From a virus, in the IMG/VR virus record IMGVR_UViG_3300012203_000003, positions 1 to 38,318 of that record: a stretch of DNA of 38,318 bases; one strand, 5' to 3'. The notes beneath the pieces are model-generated. The model ran no database searches, was not told the origin of the DNA, and worked only from the letters and a program-made list of their open reading frames with translations. Positions 8,848 through 25,403 of the stretch are shown here, one piece after another; within the stretch, counting starts at the first letter, position 1, and each line of letters begins with the position of its first letter. A program made the position numbers and the translations under genes.

Positions 8848-8875
8848 CCCCGCTTTCCTTGAAGCGGGGTTTTTT
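8848..8875 (+). terminator. intrinsic terminator of the recombination operon
   Basis: A perfect 8-bp stem, CCCCGCTT (8848-8855) with AAGCGGGG (8862-8869), a 6-nt loop and six T residues. The T-run reaches the stop codon of the leftward gene at 8874. Confidence 0.93.
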
Positions 8876-9092
8876 ATTTCTGTTTAGGCGGTCTTCCTCT
8901 TTTTCTCTTAATCGGAATGGTTTTAGGCTCATCGATCCCTTTAAGCTTCTTAATTACCCACTTAACTTCTTCAGCCATTCCTTTGATATTCGTGTTGATT
9001 TTGACAAGCTGTATCATTATAAAAAACAGGGAAATAACTAGAGAAATCGATCCAATCATACTGAAAATAGTTGCTATAATTTCTGGTTCCAT
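8874..9092 (-). CDS. membrane protein with a C-terminal AT-hook
   Basis: The ATG at 9092 is chosen because AAGGA lies at a good distance upstream; an upstream in-frame extension would cross the terminator. The 72-residue product has a hydrophobic segment (residues about 6-30, IATIFSMIGSISLVISLFFIMI), an amphipathic linker with KWVIKKLKGI, and a basic tail containing KRGRPPK, the R-G-R-P core of an AT-hook, which binds the minor groove of AT-rich DNA. One end would sit in the inner membrane and the cytoplasmic tail could hold DNA. It lies beside the presumed origin. A holin-like role is the alternative. Confidence 0.65.
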   Translation of the reverse strand: MEPEIIATIFSMIGSISLVISLFFIMIQLVKINTNIKGMAEEVKWVIKKLKGIDEPKTIPIKRKRGRPPKQK

Positions 9093-9133
9093 TTGGGAAT
9101 TCCTTTGGTGAAAGATGTAACAGTAGTAAATAT

Positions 9134-9165
9134 AAAGAAAAAAGGGAACCAGTTTCCTAGTTCCC
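9134..9165 (-). terminator. intrinsic terminator, leftward
   Basis: GGGAAC (9144-9149) and GTTCCC (9160-9165) form a 6-bp stem; read leftward it is followed by TTTTTTCTTT. No protein gene lies upstream of it on this strand back to the fibre genes, which implies a non-coding transcript ending here. Confidence 0.7.
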
Positions 9166-9175
9166 AAGGTTGAGT

Positions 9176-9192
9176 ATCACCTAGGAGGTGAT
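9176..9192. repeat. palindrome ATCACCT-AGG-AGGTGAT
   Basis: Two perfect 7-bp arms separated by AGG. The right arm with its spacer reads AGGAGGTGAT, a full match to the 16S anti-Shine-Dalgarno; the left arm equals the 16S tail motif ATCACCT. A following ATG has only four codons before a stop. It may be an operator or an RNA hairpin. Confidence 0.7.
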
Positions 9193-9505
9193 GATACCAT
9201 CTTAACACAATACGCATTTTGATGAACAAAAAAGAGAGGCGGTTGAGACCAGACTCCCAAAATATCCCGTAAAAAGTTGACGCTCCTTACTAGAGAAAAA
9301 TCCTAATCTACTGGAGAAAAGTTCACCGTTTTTGTAAGTTCTTGGGTTACGGCAGAGCTTTTAAGGAACGCTAGCCAAGCTTACGATCAAAGCGCCAGTT
9401 CGACCGTTTGGAGGTGGTGAGCCTCGTTAAGAAAAACATACTCCAAAAAGATTTATGTGGAAATAAAATTTAAACAATTATAGGCTGACGCTACAAAACG
9501 AAAGA

Positions 9506-9628
9506 GAGAGCCCCGACCAAGGTCCTCCCTCTTTTAACACTGAAAACGATGTTAGACGTAATCATAGCAAATCTGCAGATTAAATCAACAAGAAAGTGTT
9601 AAAAGAGAAGGTTGCAGGCGGGGCTCTC
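9506..9628. repeat. long two-part inverted repeat upstream of the replication gene, candidate origin
   Basis: The outer arms are a perfect 10 bp (9506-9515 with 9619-9628, GAGAGCCCCG and its complement). The inner arms are a perfect 13 bp (9529-9541 with 9595-9607, CTCTTTTAACACT and its complement). Internal loops of 13 and 11 nt lie between them, and a 12-bp palindrome AATCTGCAGATT (9570-9581) lies in the central loop. Either strand could extrude a large cruciform. It ends 18 bp before the initiator gene and encloses a leftward promoter. Candidate roles are replication origin or paired operators. Confidence 0.6.
9561..9588 (-). promoter_or_regulatory. leftward extended -10 promoter
   Basis: On the minus strand TTGATT (9588-9583), a 16-bp gap and TATGAT (9566-9561), preceded by TGC so that the -10 is of the extended type. 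The central palindrome 9570-9581 lies inside the spacer, which would let a bound protein control it. Confidence 0.55.
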
Positions 9629-9646
9629 CTAAAAAAAGAGGCTTAA

Positions 9647-10543
9647 ATGCGTATCCCAGCACCCAATTTTACTGCCACTCCAAACGATTTGTTTGATGAA
9701 TGGCTTCCACTATTAAGCCATGTAGAGCTTAAAGTTCTAATGACGATCATGAGAAAAACCTTTGGTTGGCATAAGATTCGAGATCGAATCAGCTTAAGCC
9801 AACTTGAAAAGATCACGGGATCAAAAAGATCGGCCATCATTAAGGCCGCTAAAAACCTTCAAAAGATGGGACTAATTTTTAAAGAAGTAGTCGGCGAAAA
9901 AGGTTTCGAAAATACTGTTTATGAACTTGTTGTCATAGAGGATTCAAATAATTTTACCCAGTCTCCTGGCGAGACCCCCCCCAGTCTTCCCAGAAGACCC
10001 ACAAAAGAAACTTTTCAAAATGTTTCTAAAGAAACTTATAAAGAAACTTCAAAAGGCAAAAAGAAGGAAAAAATAGACCTATCACCTAAAATCACCTTCA
10101 ATTCCTCAACTCGCAAGTTTGAAGGTATAACTCAAGAAGATATCGACACTTGGAGAAAAGCTCACCCATCGGTGAATGTGAATAAAGTAATTGATGAATG
10201 TGCTATCTGGGCGTTATCTAATCCAAGGGAGCATTATCGAAAATCGATCAATACTTATATGAAGAATACTGAGAAAAATCATACTACACCATATATTCCT
10301 AAAGACAAAAATGAAGTCGAGTTTTCCTTAGAAGATGTAAAAACCAATAAATCTTTAGCAGAAAAATGGGAATTGGAATATAGCAAAAAACGCATGCAAA
10401 ACTATGATATTCATGCAAAGCCATCAAATGTTTTATTTTTATTTCCAAACAATGTTTCCGAATCGTTAGAATTTAATCATCCAACTGAGGAGTTTAAGAA
10501 AAAATGTCAACAATACCTGAACAGATTAAAGATTCAACTTTAA
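9647..10543 (+). CDS. replication initiation protein (phage O-like)
   Basis: Residues about 14-98 form a winged helix-turn-helix: LSHVELKVLMTIMRKTFGWHK, then SLSQLEKITGSKRSAIIKAAKNLQKMGLI. This is the N-terminal origin-binding domain of phage replication proteins such as lambda O. A Pro/Ser/Thr/Lys-rich linker (about 107-145) leads to a helical C-terminal domain (DIDTWRKAHPSV, then WALSNPREHYRKSINTYMK), which in relatives recruits the host helicase. The length of 298 aa is usual. GAGG precedes the ATG. No helicase or loader is encoded nearby, so host DnaB and DnaC-type proteins are presumably used. The inverted repeat just upstream is the likely binding region, or sites lie within the gene as in lambda. 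Confidence 0.8.
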   Translation: MRIPAPNFTATPNDLFDEWLPLLSHVELKVLMTIMRKTFGWHKIRDRISLSQLEKITGSKRSAIIKAAKNLQKMGLIFKEVVGEKGFENTVYELVVIEDSNNFTQSPGETPPSLPRRPTKETFQNVSKETYKETSKGKKKEKIDLSPKITFNSSTRKFEGITQEDIDTWRKAHPSVNVNKVIDECAIWALSNPREHYRKSINTYMKNTEKNHTTPYIPKDKNEVEFSLEDVKTNKSLAEKWELEYSKKRMQNYDIHAKPSNVLFLFPNNVSESLEFNHPTEEFKKKCQQYLNRLKIQL

Positions 10544-10887: not shown

Positions 10888-10949
10888 TAGCCAAATTGAT
10901 TAATAGTCGATCCTGAGGCGTTTAAATTAGCAATGTGAGGATTTGGCTA
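10888..10949. repeat. TAGCCAAAT inverted repeat at the end of the fibre operon
   Basis: TAGCCAAAT (10888-10896) and ATTTGGCTA (10941-10949) are a perfect 9-bp inverted repeat with a 44-nt loop, spanning the stop codon of the last fibre gene. No T-run follows. It may protect or end the long leftward message, but is not a standard terminator. Confidence 0.45.
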
Positions 10950-11687
10950 ACCGAGAAGGAAACCAGAAAACCAGGTTAAACCAATTCCAGGGATTATAGA
11001 ACAGGTTTTAGTGCTGCCAGTGGCATATACATAAAATTTTACAGTATCATTAGCGGTTAGTTTTATCATTAAAGAATTGGAAACGGAGAATCCACCGCCT
11101 CCGATATCTTGTAAATTTCCTTTAATAACGGTAGTTGAATATATAGAAGCATTGACTATAAAACCAAAACCGGCAGCTGAATCTGCTGCTGTCATTCCAC
11201 TTAATAAAGCATTTCCCATAAAAATATAAACTCCAGTTACTGGAGCCGTAAATATGCCATTTGTATTGAAGTTGGAATTTGGATCATATTCTTCCGTTAA
11301 AGCAACATTTGTTCCTAAAATATAAACAGTGCCATCTCCAGTGACATTATTATCCCCTCCATTTAAATAAGCCCTAAATGACGGTTGAAGAGGAAGTAAT
11401 CTTCTGCCGGAAGTATCCATAACCCATGTATCATTCGTTCCAAGAACTGTTCCTTGAGATATTTTAAGCTTATCTGAATCGGAATTATCCAATCCCATTT
11501 CGAAATTTGTAACTCCAGAAACATTCCAGTTAATAGTTGGATCAGCGGCTGTACCCCCTCCGACTCTAATTATTTCACGGGCAGCTGAAGATGCAGTATT
11601 TGAAGGATTTGTAATGGTTAAAGTATTGGTGACACCAGAAATTGAGGCGCCAACTGTGTTATATATTCCATTATTTGAAGCGACCAT
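10947..11687 (-). CDS. tail-fibre-like protein with C-terminal C1q-like jelly roll
   Basis: A 246-residue protein. The N-terminal part is a Ser/Thr/Asn-rich beta region; the C-terminal 135 residues look like a C1q/TNF-type jelly roll, recognised by NNVTGDGTVYILG, GIFTAPVTGVYIF and an end of short strands closing in WFSGFLLG. Such trimeric heads sit on fibre tips and bind receptors. The 734-aa fibre protein at 15458 carries the same head (VTGDGTSYTLG, GVFTAPATGIYDL), so the two genes share a module. Last gene of the fibre operon. Confidence 0.7.
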   Translation of the reverse strand: MVASNNGIYNTVGASISGVTNTLTITNPSNTASSAAREIIRVGGGTAADPTINWNVSGVTNFEMGLDNSDSDKLKISQGTVLGTNDTWVMDTSGRRLLPLQPSFRAYLNGGDNNVTGDGTVYILGTNVALTEEYDPNSNFNTNGIFTAPVTGVYIFMGNALLSGMTAADSAAGFGFIVNASIYSTTVIKGNLQDIGGGGFSVSNSLMIKLTANDTVKFYVYATGSTKTCSIIPGIGLTWFSGFLLG

Positions 11688-17662: not shown

Positions 17663-17694
17663 GGATCCTCTTAGGGGTGTAAAATCTTTTCTTT

Positions 17695-17723
17695 AAAATA
17701 TGTTAAAGGGAATGGAATGTCAA
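17695..17723 (-). promoter_or_regulatory. promoter of the fibre operon
   Basis: On the minus strand TTGACA (17723-17718), a 17-bp gap and TATTTT (17700-17695). RNA would begin near 17688, leaving a leader of about 25 nt with GAGG before the ATG at 17662. Best sigma-70-type match in the window. Confidence 0.75.
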
Positions 17724-17774
17724 AAAAAGATTACGACTTATGTTAAATAGGCAAGTGATGTAATATAGTGCTAA

Positions 17775-17978
17775 ATGATGGAAAAGAAATATTGGACAAT
17801 CACTCAATTCTGTACTTATTATCGATGGCCGACTTCAGCCGGAATGAGACATAGATTTGCATCACGTAAAACAAATGGATATGATTCGGCTTTCTTAAGA
17901 GATGGGATAAGAATTATAATCGACGTTGAAAGATTCTGGGAAATATTGAGAGAGAAACAGGTTAAGAAGGAGGAATGA
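17775..17978 (+). CDS. small helix-turn-helix (excisionase/AlpA-like) protein
   Basis: A 67-residue protein. WTITQFCTYYRWPTSAGMRHRF followed by SAFLRDGIRIIIDVERFWEIL resembles MerR-like winged helix proteins of the excisionase/AlpA group, where the helix pair reads the site and a beta wing ends in a helix carrying a conserved W. No integrase is present, so a transcriptional role is more likely than excision. No good ribosome site precedes the ATG; a TAATAT box at 17761-17766 would give a nearly leaderless message. It heads a plus-strand island of membrane peptides. Confidence 0.65.
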   Translation: MMEKKYWTITQFCTYYRWPTSAGMRHRFASRKTNGYDSAFLRDGIRIIIDVERFWEILREKQVKKEE

Positions 17979-17979
17979 T

Positions 17980-18066
17980 ATGCTTAACTATATTTTTTAT
18001 GGTGCAGTTGCGATTTTATTAATTTCTGGAATTTATTGGAGTTTTCCGCATGGCAAAAAAAATTAA
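17980..18066 (+). CDS. membrane micropeptide, 28 aa
   Basis: The ATG at 17980 lies one base after the upstream stop codon, with a strong AAGGAGGA ribosome site. The product is one hydrophobic helix (YIFYGAVAILLISGIYW) with a short basic end. It overlaps the next gene by 17 nt. This is the size and shape of tiny phage membrane proteins, including some holins and holin modulators. Confidence 0.55.
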   Translation: MLNYIFYGAVAILLISGIYWSFPHGKKN

Positions 18067-18241
18067 AGAAATAAATTTCGAAAAAATAACCATACTTTTG
18101 ACATGCACAGCGATTTTAATATCATTTTGGCAAACTCAAATAAGTATAATTAAAGACCAATCTGATATAAAAGAACGGGTGAAGTCCCTAGAAGTAATAA
18201 TAAAAATAAAAAGTGAGAATAATAAAAATGGAAAAGACTAA
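18050..18241 (+). CDS. membrane-anchored coiled-coil protein, 63 aa (spanin- or holin-like)
   Basis: A basic start, a membrane helix (residues about 13-28, ITILLTCTAILISFWQ) and a coiled tail (DQSDIKERVKSLEVIIKIK). GGAG lies eight bases before the ATG. A type II anchor with a periplasmic coil fits an inner-membrane spanin or a small holin, but no partner or endolysin confirms it. Confidence 0.6.
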   Translation: MAKKIKEINFEKITILLTCTAILISFWQTQISIIKDQSDIKERVKSLEVIIKIKSENNKNGKD

Positions 18242-18434
18242 AGAAGAAAGATTTGAAAATATATCTGGGAATATATGTTTAATTGTAGTTCTAGGAATTG
18301 TTTGTTGGCTAGGGTTTTATGTCGTTAGAAATGTTTTTAATGCGTTCTCGTGTGAAATAGAAGCTAGTTATTCATCTTGTTTATATCATATACAAGATCT
18401 TTTTAGTATAATATTTAAAGGGACAAGGGCATAA
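18228..18434 (+). CDS. membrane protein, 68 aa
   Basis: The ATG at 18228 is preferred over an upstream GTG at 18213; GTGAG lies upstream. One clear hydrophobic segment (residues about 16-36, ICLIVVLGIVCWLGFYVV), then a region with two cysteines and a second moderately hydrophobic helix (LYHIQDLFSIIF). It overlaps the 63-aa gene. With its neighbours it makes a cassette of three small membrane proteins, the best lysis candidate in the genome. Confidence 0.6.
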   Translation: MEKTKEERFENISGNICLIVVLGIVCWLGFYVVRNVFNAFSCEIEASYSSCLYHIQDLFSIIFKGTRA

Positions 18435-18448
18435 AAATGTTAACTATA

Positions 18449-25330: not shown

Positions 25331-25403
25331 GCTTGTGTAGCTCAATTGGTAGAGCATTCGACTTGTAATCGAACGGTTGAGGGTTCAATTCCTTTCGCAA
25401 GCA
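25331..25403 (+). tRNA. tRNA-Thr (anticodon UGU)
   Basis: A complete 73-base cloverleaf: acceptor GCTTGTG with CGCAAGC, D arm GCTC/GAGC, anticodon stem TTCGA/TCGAA with loop CTTGTAA (anticodon TGT), T arm GAGGG/CCTTT with loop TTCAATT, discriminator A. The 3' CCA is not encoded. It reads ACA and, if U34 is unmodified, other ACN codons. It is packed between a plus-strand stop codon (no gap) and the end of the minus-strand tail adaptor gene (one base). The fibre genes are unusually rich in threonine, which may explain why it is kept. Confidence 0.95.

Follow-up and report, generated by a model that had tools for sequence, protein, structure and literature searches.

The window, by which we mean the whole stretch of DNA analyzed here, is an entire virus record of 38,318 bases. 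Between positions 9093 and 9646, where inspection of the open reading frames gives no convincing protein frame, lies a locus whose neighbors include Erf, YqaJ and an O-like replication initiator. The features on which the discussion below depends are listed in order of position.

8848-8869, plus strand: rightward terminator after the YqaJ gene.
8874-9092, minus strand: small gene with a KRGRPPK tail; adjoins the cassette and is not part of it.
9134-9165, minus strand: second distal leftward terminator, a hairpin and T-run.
9228-9258, minus strand: distal leftward terminator at a position common to L003, L004 and L010; weak hairpin (-7.8 kcal/mol), then TTTTTT.
9259-9490, no strand assigned: conserved block upstream of the leader, with a CTTGGGTTACGGC..GCTAGCCAAG dyad and the sense-promoter region; no RNA structure above shuffles.
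9458-9486, plus strand: putative sense promoter TGGAAA-17-TAGGCT; conserved TGTGGAAATAAA at 9456-9467.
9491-9554, minus strand: predicted antisense RNA, short form of about 60 nt, with a 5' tail, a hairpin complementary to the left arm (about 9535-9503) and then a U-run.
9506-9541, plus strand: left arm; outer part 9506-9515 GAGAGCCCCG, inner part 9529-9541 CTCTTTTAACACT.
9561-9588, minus strand: antisense promoter; -35 TTGATT (9588-9583), 16-nt spacer, extended -10 TGC-TATGAT, predicted start about 9554.
9595-9628, plus strand: right arm; inner part 9595-9607 AGTGTTAAAAGAG, outer part 9619-9628 CGGGGCTCTC.
9636-9641, plus strand: initiator Shine-Dalgarno AAGAGG; predicted unpaired 0.81 in the free leader and 0.32 with the 5' half bound.
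9647-10543, plus strand: the target gene, a replication initiator with a lambda O-like N-terminal domain (PHROG replication initiation O-like, 7.7e-21; Pfam Phage_rep_O, 4.3e-12).

Relatives for comparison were reached through the upstream YqaJ exonuclease gene (L003 and L004, 72% in YqaJ; L010, 66%) or, for the more distant L019 (37% in YqaJ), through a tail gene; a second clade comprises L030-L032 and L099. A noncoding gap of about 430-520 bases occupies the equivalent place in L003, L004 and L010, whose loci can all be aligned with that of the window, and nucleotide matches to the window over about 9340-9609 are found in L003 (E 5e-12) and L004 (E 4e-21). The initial annotation had called 9093-9646 noncoding, naming a conserved protein frame in related phages as what would speak against this; such a frame was looked for by comparing the window's gap with those of four relatives, and none common to them was found. 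Its flanking genes, the small leftward KRGRPPK-tailed gene and the phage O-like initiator, were also correctly read. It had further described the stretch as the only long gap in the genome, which it is not: 17663-18448 likewise contains no ORF longer than 75 aa.

In searches of the locus in the window, L003, L004, L010, L019, L030, L032, L033, L099 and L117, every Rfam family stayed below its gathering score, and the best of these subthreshold matches were terminator hairpins. The locus contains no perfect DnaA box, with DnaA-box counts in the window at chance. No near relatives were found among named phages, nor any host prophages in genome contigs when sought via YqaJ or the tail protein, and no ParA, integrase or repressor gene, which would point to a plasmid-like or temperate lifestyle, was seen among the proteins scanned, a subset of the ORFs. 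The phage genome also carries a tRNA-Thr (TGT) gene at 25331-25403.

Genes corresponding to the KRGRPPK gene, with its AT-hook-like tail, occupy this position in L003, L004 and, in a longer form of 170 aa, L019; for the small 72-aa gene itself, there were no relatives by scan and no family match. It is missing in L010, where the locus lies directly between the YqaJ terminator and the initiator, an arrangement indicating that the locus belongs with the initiator. Given the rightward terminator after YqaJ, the initiator probably needs a promoter of its own. Downstream, a tail-region protein encoded at 10947-11687, with a weak C1q-like C-terminus (below the Pfam cut-off), is kept near the initiator in relatives.

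Central to the locus is a long inverted repeat (9506-9541 / 9595-9628), overlooked in the initial annotation, whose 53-nt loop contains the leftward promoter. Pairing is complete both in the inner arms (13/13 pairs, 9529-9541 with 9595-9607) and in the outer arms (10/10, 9506-9515 with 9619-9628), and GCTCT (9623-9627), in the 3' part of the right arm, doubles as an anti-Shine-Dalgarno. The letters of the inner arms differ among the window and its relatives (CTCTTTTAACACT, CTCTAACGACTT, CTCTAACGAC and CCCCTAACTCG), while each arm pairs perfectly with its own complement. When the inner arms are aligned on TAAC/GTTA, both sides have changed in 6 of 11 comparable pairs, and in register every one of the 46 cells is paired, as against 12-21 of 34-42 when the arms are slid by 1-3. 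Likewise, the duplex of left with right arm averages -37.4 kcal/mol within a phage and -21.1 kcal/mol across phages. Since leftward transcription would begin past the right arm, only a rightward RNA, the initiator leader, can contain the two arms at once. The 5' half of this leader is complementary to an antisense RNA started at about 9554.

A single promoter match would say little here, with 9 consensus matches in the 3-kb region against 6.8 expected. What raises the leftward promoter above chance is recurrence in the same loop: an extended -10 promoter with 16-nt spacing stands at the equivalent position in the window, L003, L004, L010 and L019, that is, in 5/5 loops where 0.0043 per loop would be expected from the promoter density of AT-rich loci. 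This is the promoter that had been proposed at 9588-9561, now with counterparts in four relatives. As far as the sequences tell, an opposite-strand promoter within the initiator leader, one of the features by which the functional class of antisense-controlled leaders is recognized, thus appears in all five loci. It is clear in the window's clade and L019 only; for the second clade (L030-L032, L099) an antisense promoter is plausible, if not clear by sequence.

Fold prediction gives the leader two mutually exclusive states, with the left and right arms paired (open) or with the left arm occupied by antisense RNA (closed). In the free leader, the minimum-energy fold sets the left arm on the right arm in 8/8 phages examined; once the antisense-complementary part is made unavailable (a part chosen by hand for L019 and the second clade), the right arm is predicted to pair with the Shine-Dalgarno instead. 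Predicted openness of the Shine-Dalgarno then goes from 0.52 to 0.00 in L003, 0.68 to 0.00 in L004, 0.63 to 0.34 in L010, 0.96 to 0.03 in L019, 0.38 to 0.01 in L030 and 0.51 to 0.17 in L031, with little change in L032 (0.23 to 0.17); the window's own Shine-Dalgarno hairpin is modest, leaving 0.32 open after binding. Blocking the loop as a control left openness unaltered, while shuffling the left part gave approximately the bound openness, with the free value reached in 2, 0, 0 and 1 of 100 shuffles. The same test was applied, as a positive control, to a leader already described as antisense-controlled, that of repC on the Rhizobium plasmid p42d, where openness went from 0.55 to 0.05. In these models, then, the loci display a further feature of the functional class, mutually exclusive leader pairings that open or close initiator expression. 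Since the closing hairpin is not followed by a T-run, the predicted effect is a block of translation.

The length of the antisense RNA may vary among the phages. In L010 and L004, six T follow the left-arm hairpin in the leftward reading, predicting an RNA of about 55-65 nt; in the window and L003 the U-run directly after this hairpin is weak (CGTTTTG, TCTTATTTG), so that read-through could extend the RNA to about 325 nt (to 9228) or about 420 nt (to 9134). A hairpin that would terminate the antisense RNA is clear by sequence in L010, L004, L030, L032, L099 and L033, and leftward terminator hairpins lie at or just beyond the left arm in L030, L031, L032, L099 and L033. The terminator-like hairpin of L019 comes ahead of the left arm, and a short antisense form there would therefore cover the loop only. 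The terminator at 9228-9258 would end the read-through form of about 325 nt.

Terminator matches in the 3-kb region number 4 against 2.2 expected. The hairpin and T-run that the initial annotation had placed at 9165-9134 are present, but they do not serve well as the frame of the RNA, having a counterpart in L004 only, whereas the shared-position terminator lies at about 9258-9228 and a nearer hairpin at 9535-9500. A long structured leftward RNA was considered and rejected: 9134-9554 gives z -1.94, but the block 9259-9490 alone is unstructured in the window, folding no better than shuffled sequence (z +1.06), so that the free-standing RNA of about 0.4 kb first proposed is not supported. What survives of that reading is a noncoding RNA, read leftward from a promoter of its own, with a probable regulatory role in connection with replication; the suggested roles as primer or decoy find no support.

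On the opposite strand, TGTGGAAATAAA and TAGG[CA]T are conserved 17-18 nt apart in the window, L003, L004 and L010. This putative sense promoter, a weak match to the sigma-70 consensus, would give the initiator a predicted leader of about 155 nt in the window and 152-156 nt across four close relatives, and it would account for part of the patchy conservation of the 9259-9490 block. Only L010's leftward strand of the block beats shuffles (z -3.1), and the consensus structure has 14 pairs, of which two have double changes, one of those in the terminator. The cassette is retained without the block in L019 and the second clade. The four close relatives also share a conserved imperfect dyad, CTTGGGTTACGGC..GCTAGCCAAG (CTTGGG..CCAAG, about 9343-9398), upstream of the putative sense promoter; candidate roles for it are an origin, a regulator site or an RNA hairpin.

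Beneath the conserved leader, the initiator genes are diverse. Each is assigned by score to a family of phage replication initiation proteins or helicase loaders, and BLAST finds no similarity between the initiators of the window and L003 or between those of L003 and L004; the window and L010 initiators have mainly the C-terminal part in common (51% over the aligned part). Judged by these comparisons, the control element is conserved while the gene beneath it is exchanged. L002 shares the initiator N-terminus and is without the locus. The window (9647-10543) and L010 (6397-7284) initiators have about 150 C-terminal aa in common under different N-termini (Phage_rep_O and HTH_36, respectively), which, on domain assignments, is a case of domain exchange in phage initiators.

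To what extent this arrangement recurs was addressed by a scan of every retrieved locus with GC of 0.46 or less, limited to genes encoding 150 aa or more (385 genes, 28 flagged as initiators) and scoring an upstream segment for its ability to pair with the Shine-Dalgarno and also with an upstream arm. Ten of the top 11 among the 385 are initiators (L030, L019, L032, L099, L010, window, L033, L117, L004 and L003), and a cut-off of 30 is passed by 10/28 initiators and 6/357 other genes (Fisher p 4.6e-9, a value that overstates the number of independent cases because some scanned loci are mutually related). The signature was formulated after some loci had been viewed, so for those the scan is not independent; L099, L033 and L117 were viewed shortly before it. 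The initiator of L005 ranks 17th, counted as a non-initiator through a duplicate. In these models, it looks as if the same switch stands before unrelated initiator genes in about ten other phages. L099, L033, L117 and L030-L032 are further Erf/YqaJ phages with the left-arm, right-arm and Shine-Dalgarno arrangement before diverse initiators, and long inverted repeats lie ahead of the initiators in L036, L029 and L035.

Antisense copy-number switches are textbook plasmid biology. In the staphylococcal plasmid pSK41 (RepA_N family), the antisense RNA, RNAI, measures about 83 nt and can pair with the rep leader some 100 nt ahead of the start; its binding is proposed to induce a stem-loop hiding the ribosome-binding site, and in pPR9 the control region is 99% identical while the initiator below it has received an HTH_36 N-terminus of phage type (PMC5703833). 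The likeness to this pair, drawn by description, lies in antisense logic together with initiator exchange: here too, unrelated initiators share the cassette, and that of L010 carries HTH_36. pSK41 differs in its initiator and, as far as known, its hosts, whereas the present loci belong to tailed-phage genomes. In pT181, RNAI and the repC pre-emptor involve mutually exclusive leader pairings under antisense RNA control (PMC5703833), as is predicted here, but that system acts mainly by premature termination, and the phage closing hairpin has no terminator tail.

The RepE RNA of repABC plasmids (p42d, pTiR10) is an antisense RNA of about 50 nt between repB and repC; the free leader forms a large stem-loop with the Shine-Dalgarno open, and the bound leader refolds (PMC6090056, PMC3155836). 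The p42d repC leader behaves alike in our fold test, although its refolded form is described as a terminator, unlike the phage hairpin without a T-run. At the locus, the curated covariance-model score for ctRNA_p42d was not reached and no ctRNA family appeared even at E up to 10 (window, L019, L010), nor do repB and repC flank it as in a repABC operon, the window's neighbors being Erf, YqaJ and the O-like initiator. As no Rfam family reached its gathering score, the cassette would work like pSK41, RepE and pT181 but would not be a member of a named family.

We therefore read the locus, on comparative and computational grounds and with a probability of about 0.77, as a cassette that controls the phage replication initiator through a counter-transcribed (antisense) RNA, acting as a brake on initiator synthesis. 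A rightward promoter near 9458-9486 would produce initiator mRNA with a leader of about 155 nt, in which the left arm (9506-9541) would pair with the right arm (9595-9628), leaving the Shine-Dalgarno (9636-9641) open and the initiator made. From the leftward promoter in the loop, transcription starting at about 9554 would yield an antisense RNA able to pair with the left arm; once bound there, it would free the right arm to pair with the Shine-Dalgarno, and initiator synthesis would stop. With more genome copies there would be more antisense RNA, hence a copy-number brake on replication. What computation directly yields is a pair of arms whose complementarity is phage specific, an antisense promoter that is conserved, folds that exclude each other and enrichment before initiators; we infer the existence of both transcripts, the sense promoter, the antisense length and the negative effect on initiator synthesis.

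The leftward promoter just upstream of an O-like initiator could also be a convergent promoter like pO of lambda, interfering with transcription, its RNA unimportant or acting elsewhere, as oop does on cII. In lambda, oop is a short leftward RNA starting immediately upstream of an O-type initiator gene. There, pO reduces transcription from pR and influences replication, and oop RNA is reported to have no action on the O-P mRNA (PMC3985674). The target of oop is cII, and no cII homologue was seen upstream of the locus, where the neighbor is the KRGRPPK gene in opposite orientation. We consider this account unlikely, as it leaves the covarying inverted repeat, the Shine-Dalgarno switch and the enrichment before initiators unexplained.

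Alternatively, the inverted repeat might be a DNA element, either an operator bound by the initiator for autorepression or part of a replication origin, given that the dyad adjoins the initiator gene and that several phages and plasmids have their origin near or inside that gene. If a protein bound there, the sequence should stay constant wherever the initiator is of one type, yet the arms differ even between L003 and L030, whose initiators are 37% identical, and complementarity alone is kept; moreover, predicted Shine-Dalgarno openness depends on the arm. We regard this reading as very unlikely. We also think it very unlikely that the product is a free-standing phage RNA of 320-420 nt (regulator, decoy or replication primer) running from 9554 to 9228 or 9134. 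Such an RNA would fit the leftward terminators that all four close relatives have at matching distal positions, the conserved upstream block and its structured leftward strand in L010, and RNA-based prophage origins exist in mycobacteriophages (PMC7157519). Against it stand the window block, which folds no better than shuffles and has a weak consensus structure, the retention of the cassette without the block in L019 and the second clade, and the lack of any Rfam match.

We found no description, in the open-access papers searched, of an antisense switch of this kind on the O-like initiators of tailed phages. If the locus is an antisense control cassette, it would show concretely how early phage replication can be braked at the level of RNA, and how a control element can persist while the controlled protein is replaced. 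More tentatively, it may be a portable copy-control cassette of pSK41/RepE type in a widespread tailed-phage group, kept while the initiator is exchanged; because the arms are phage specific, such a cassette would also set which related phages can co-replicate in one cell, in the manner of incompatibility groups. The switch would also offer a test for RNA-based interference between phages, and further phage genomes can be searched for its combined left-arm, right-arm and Shine-Dalgarno signature.
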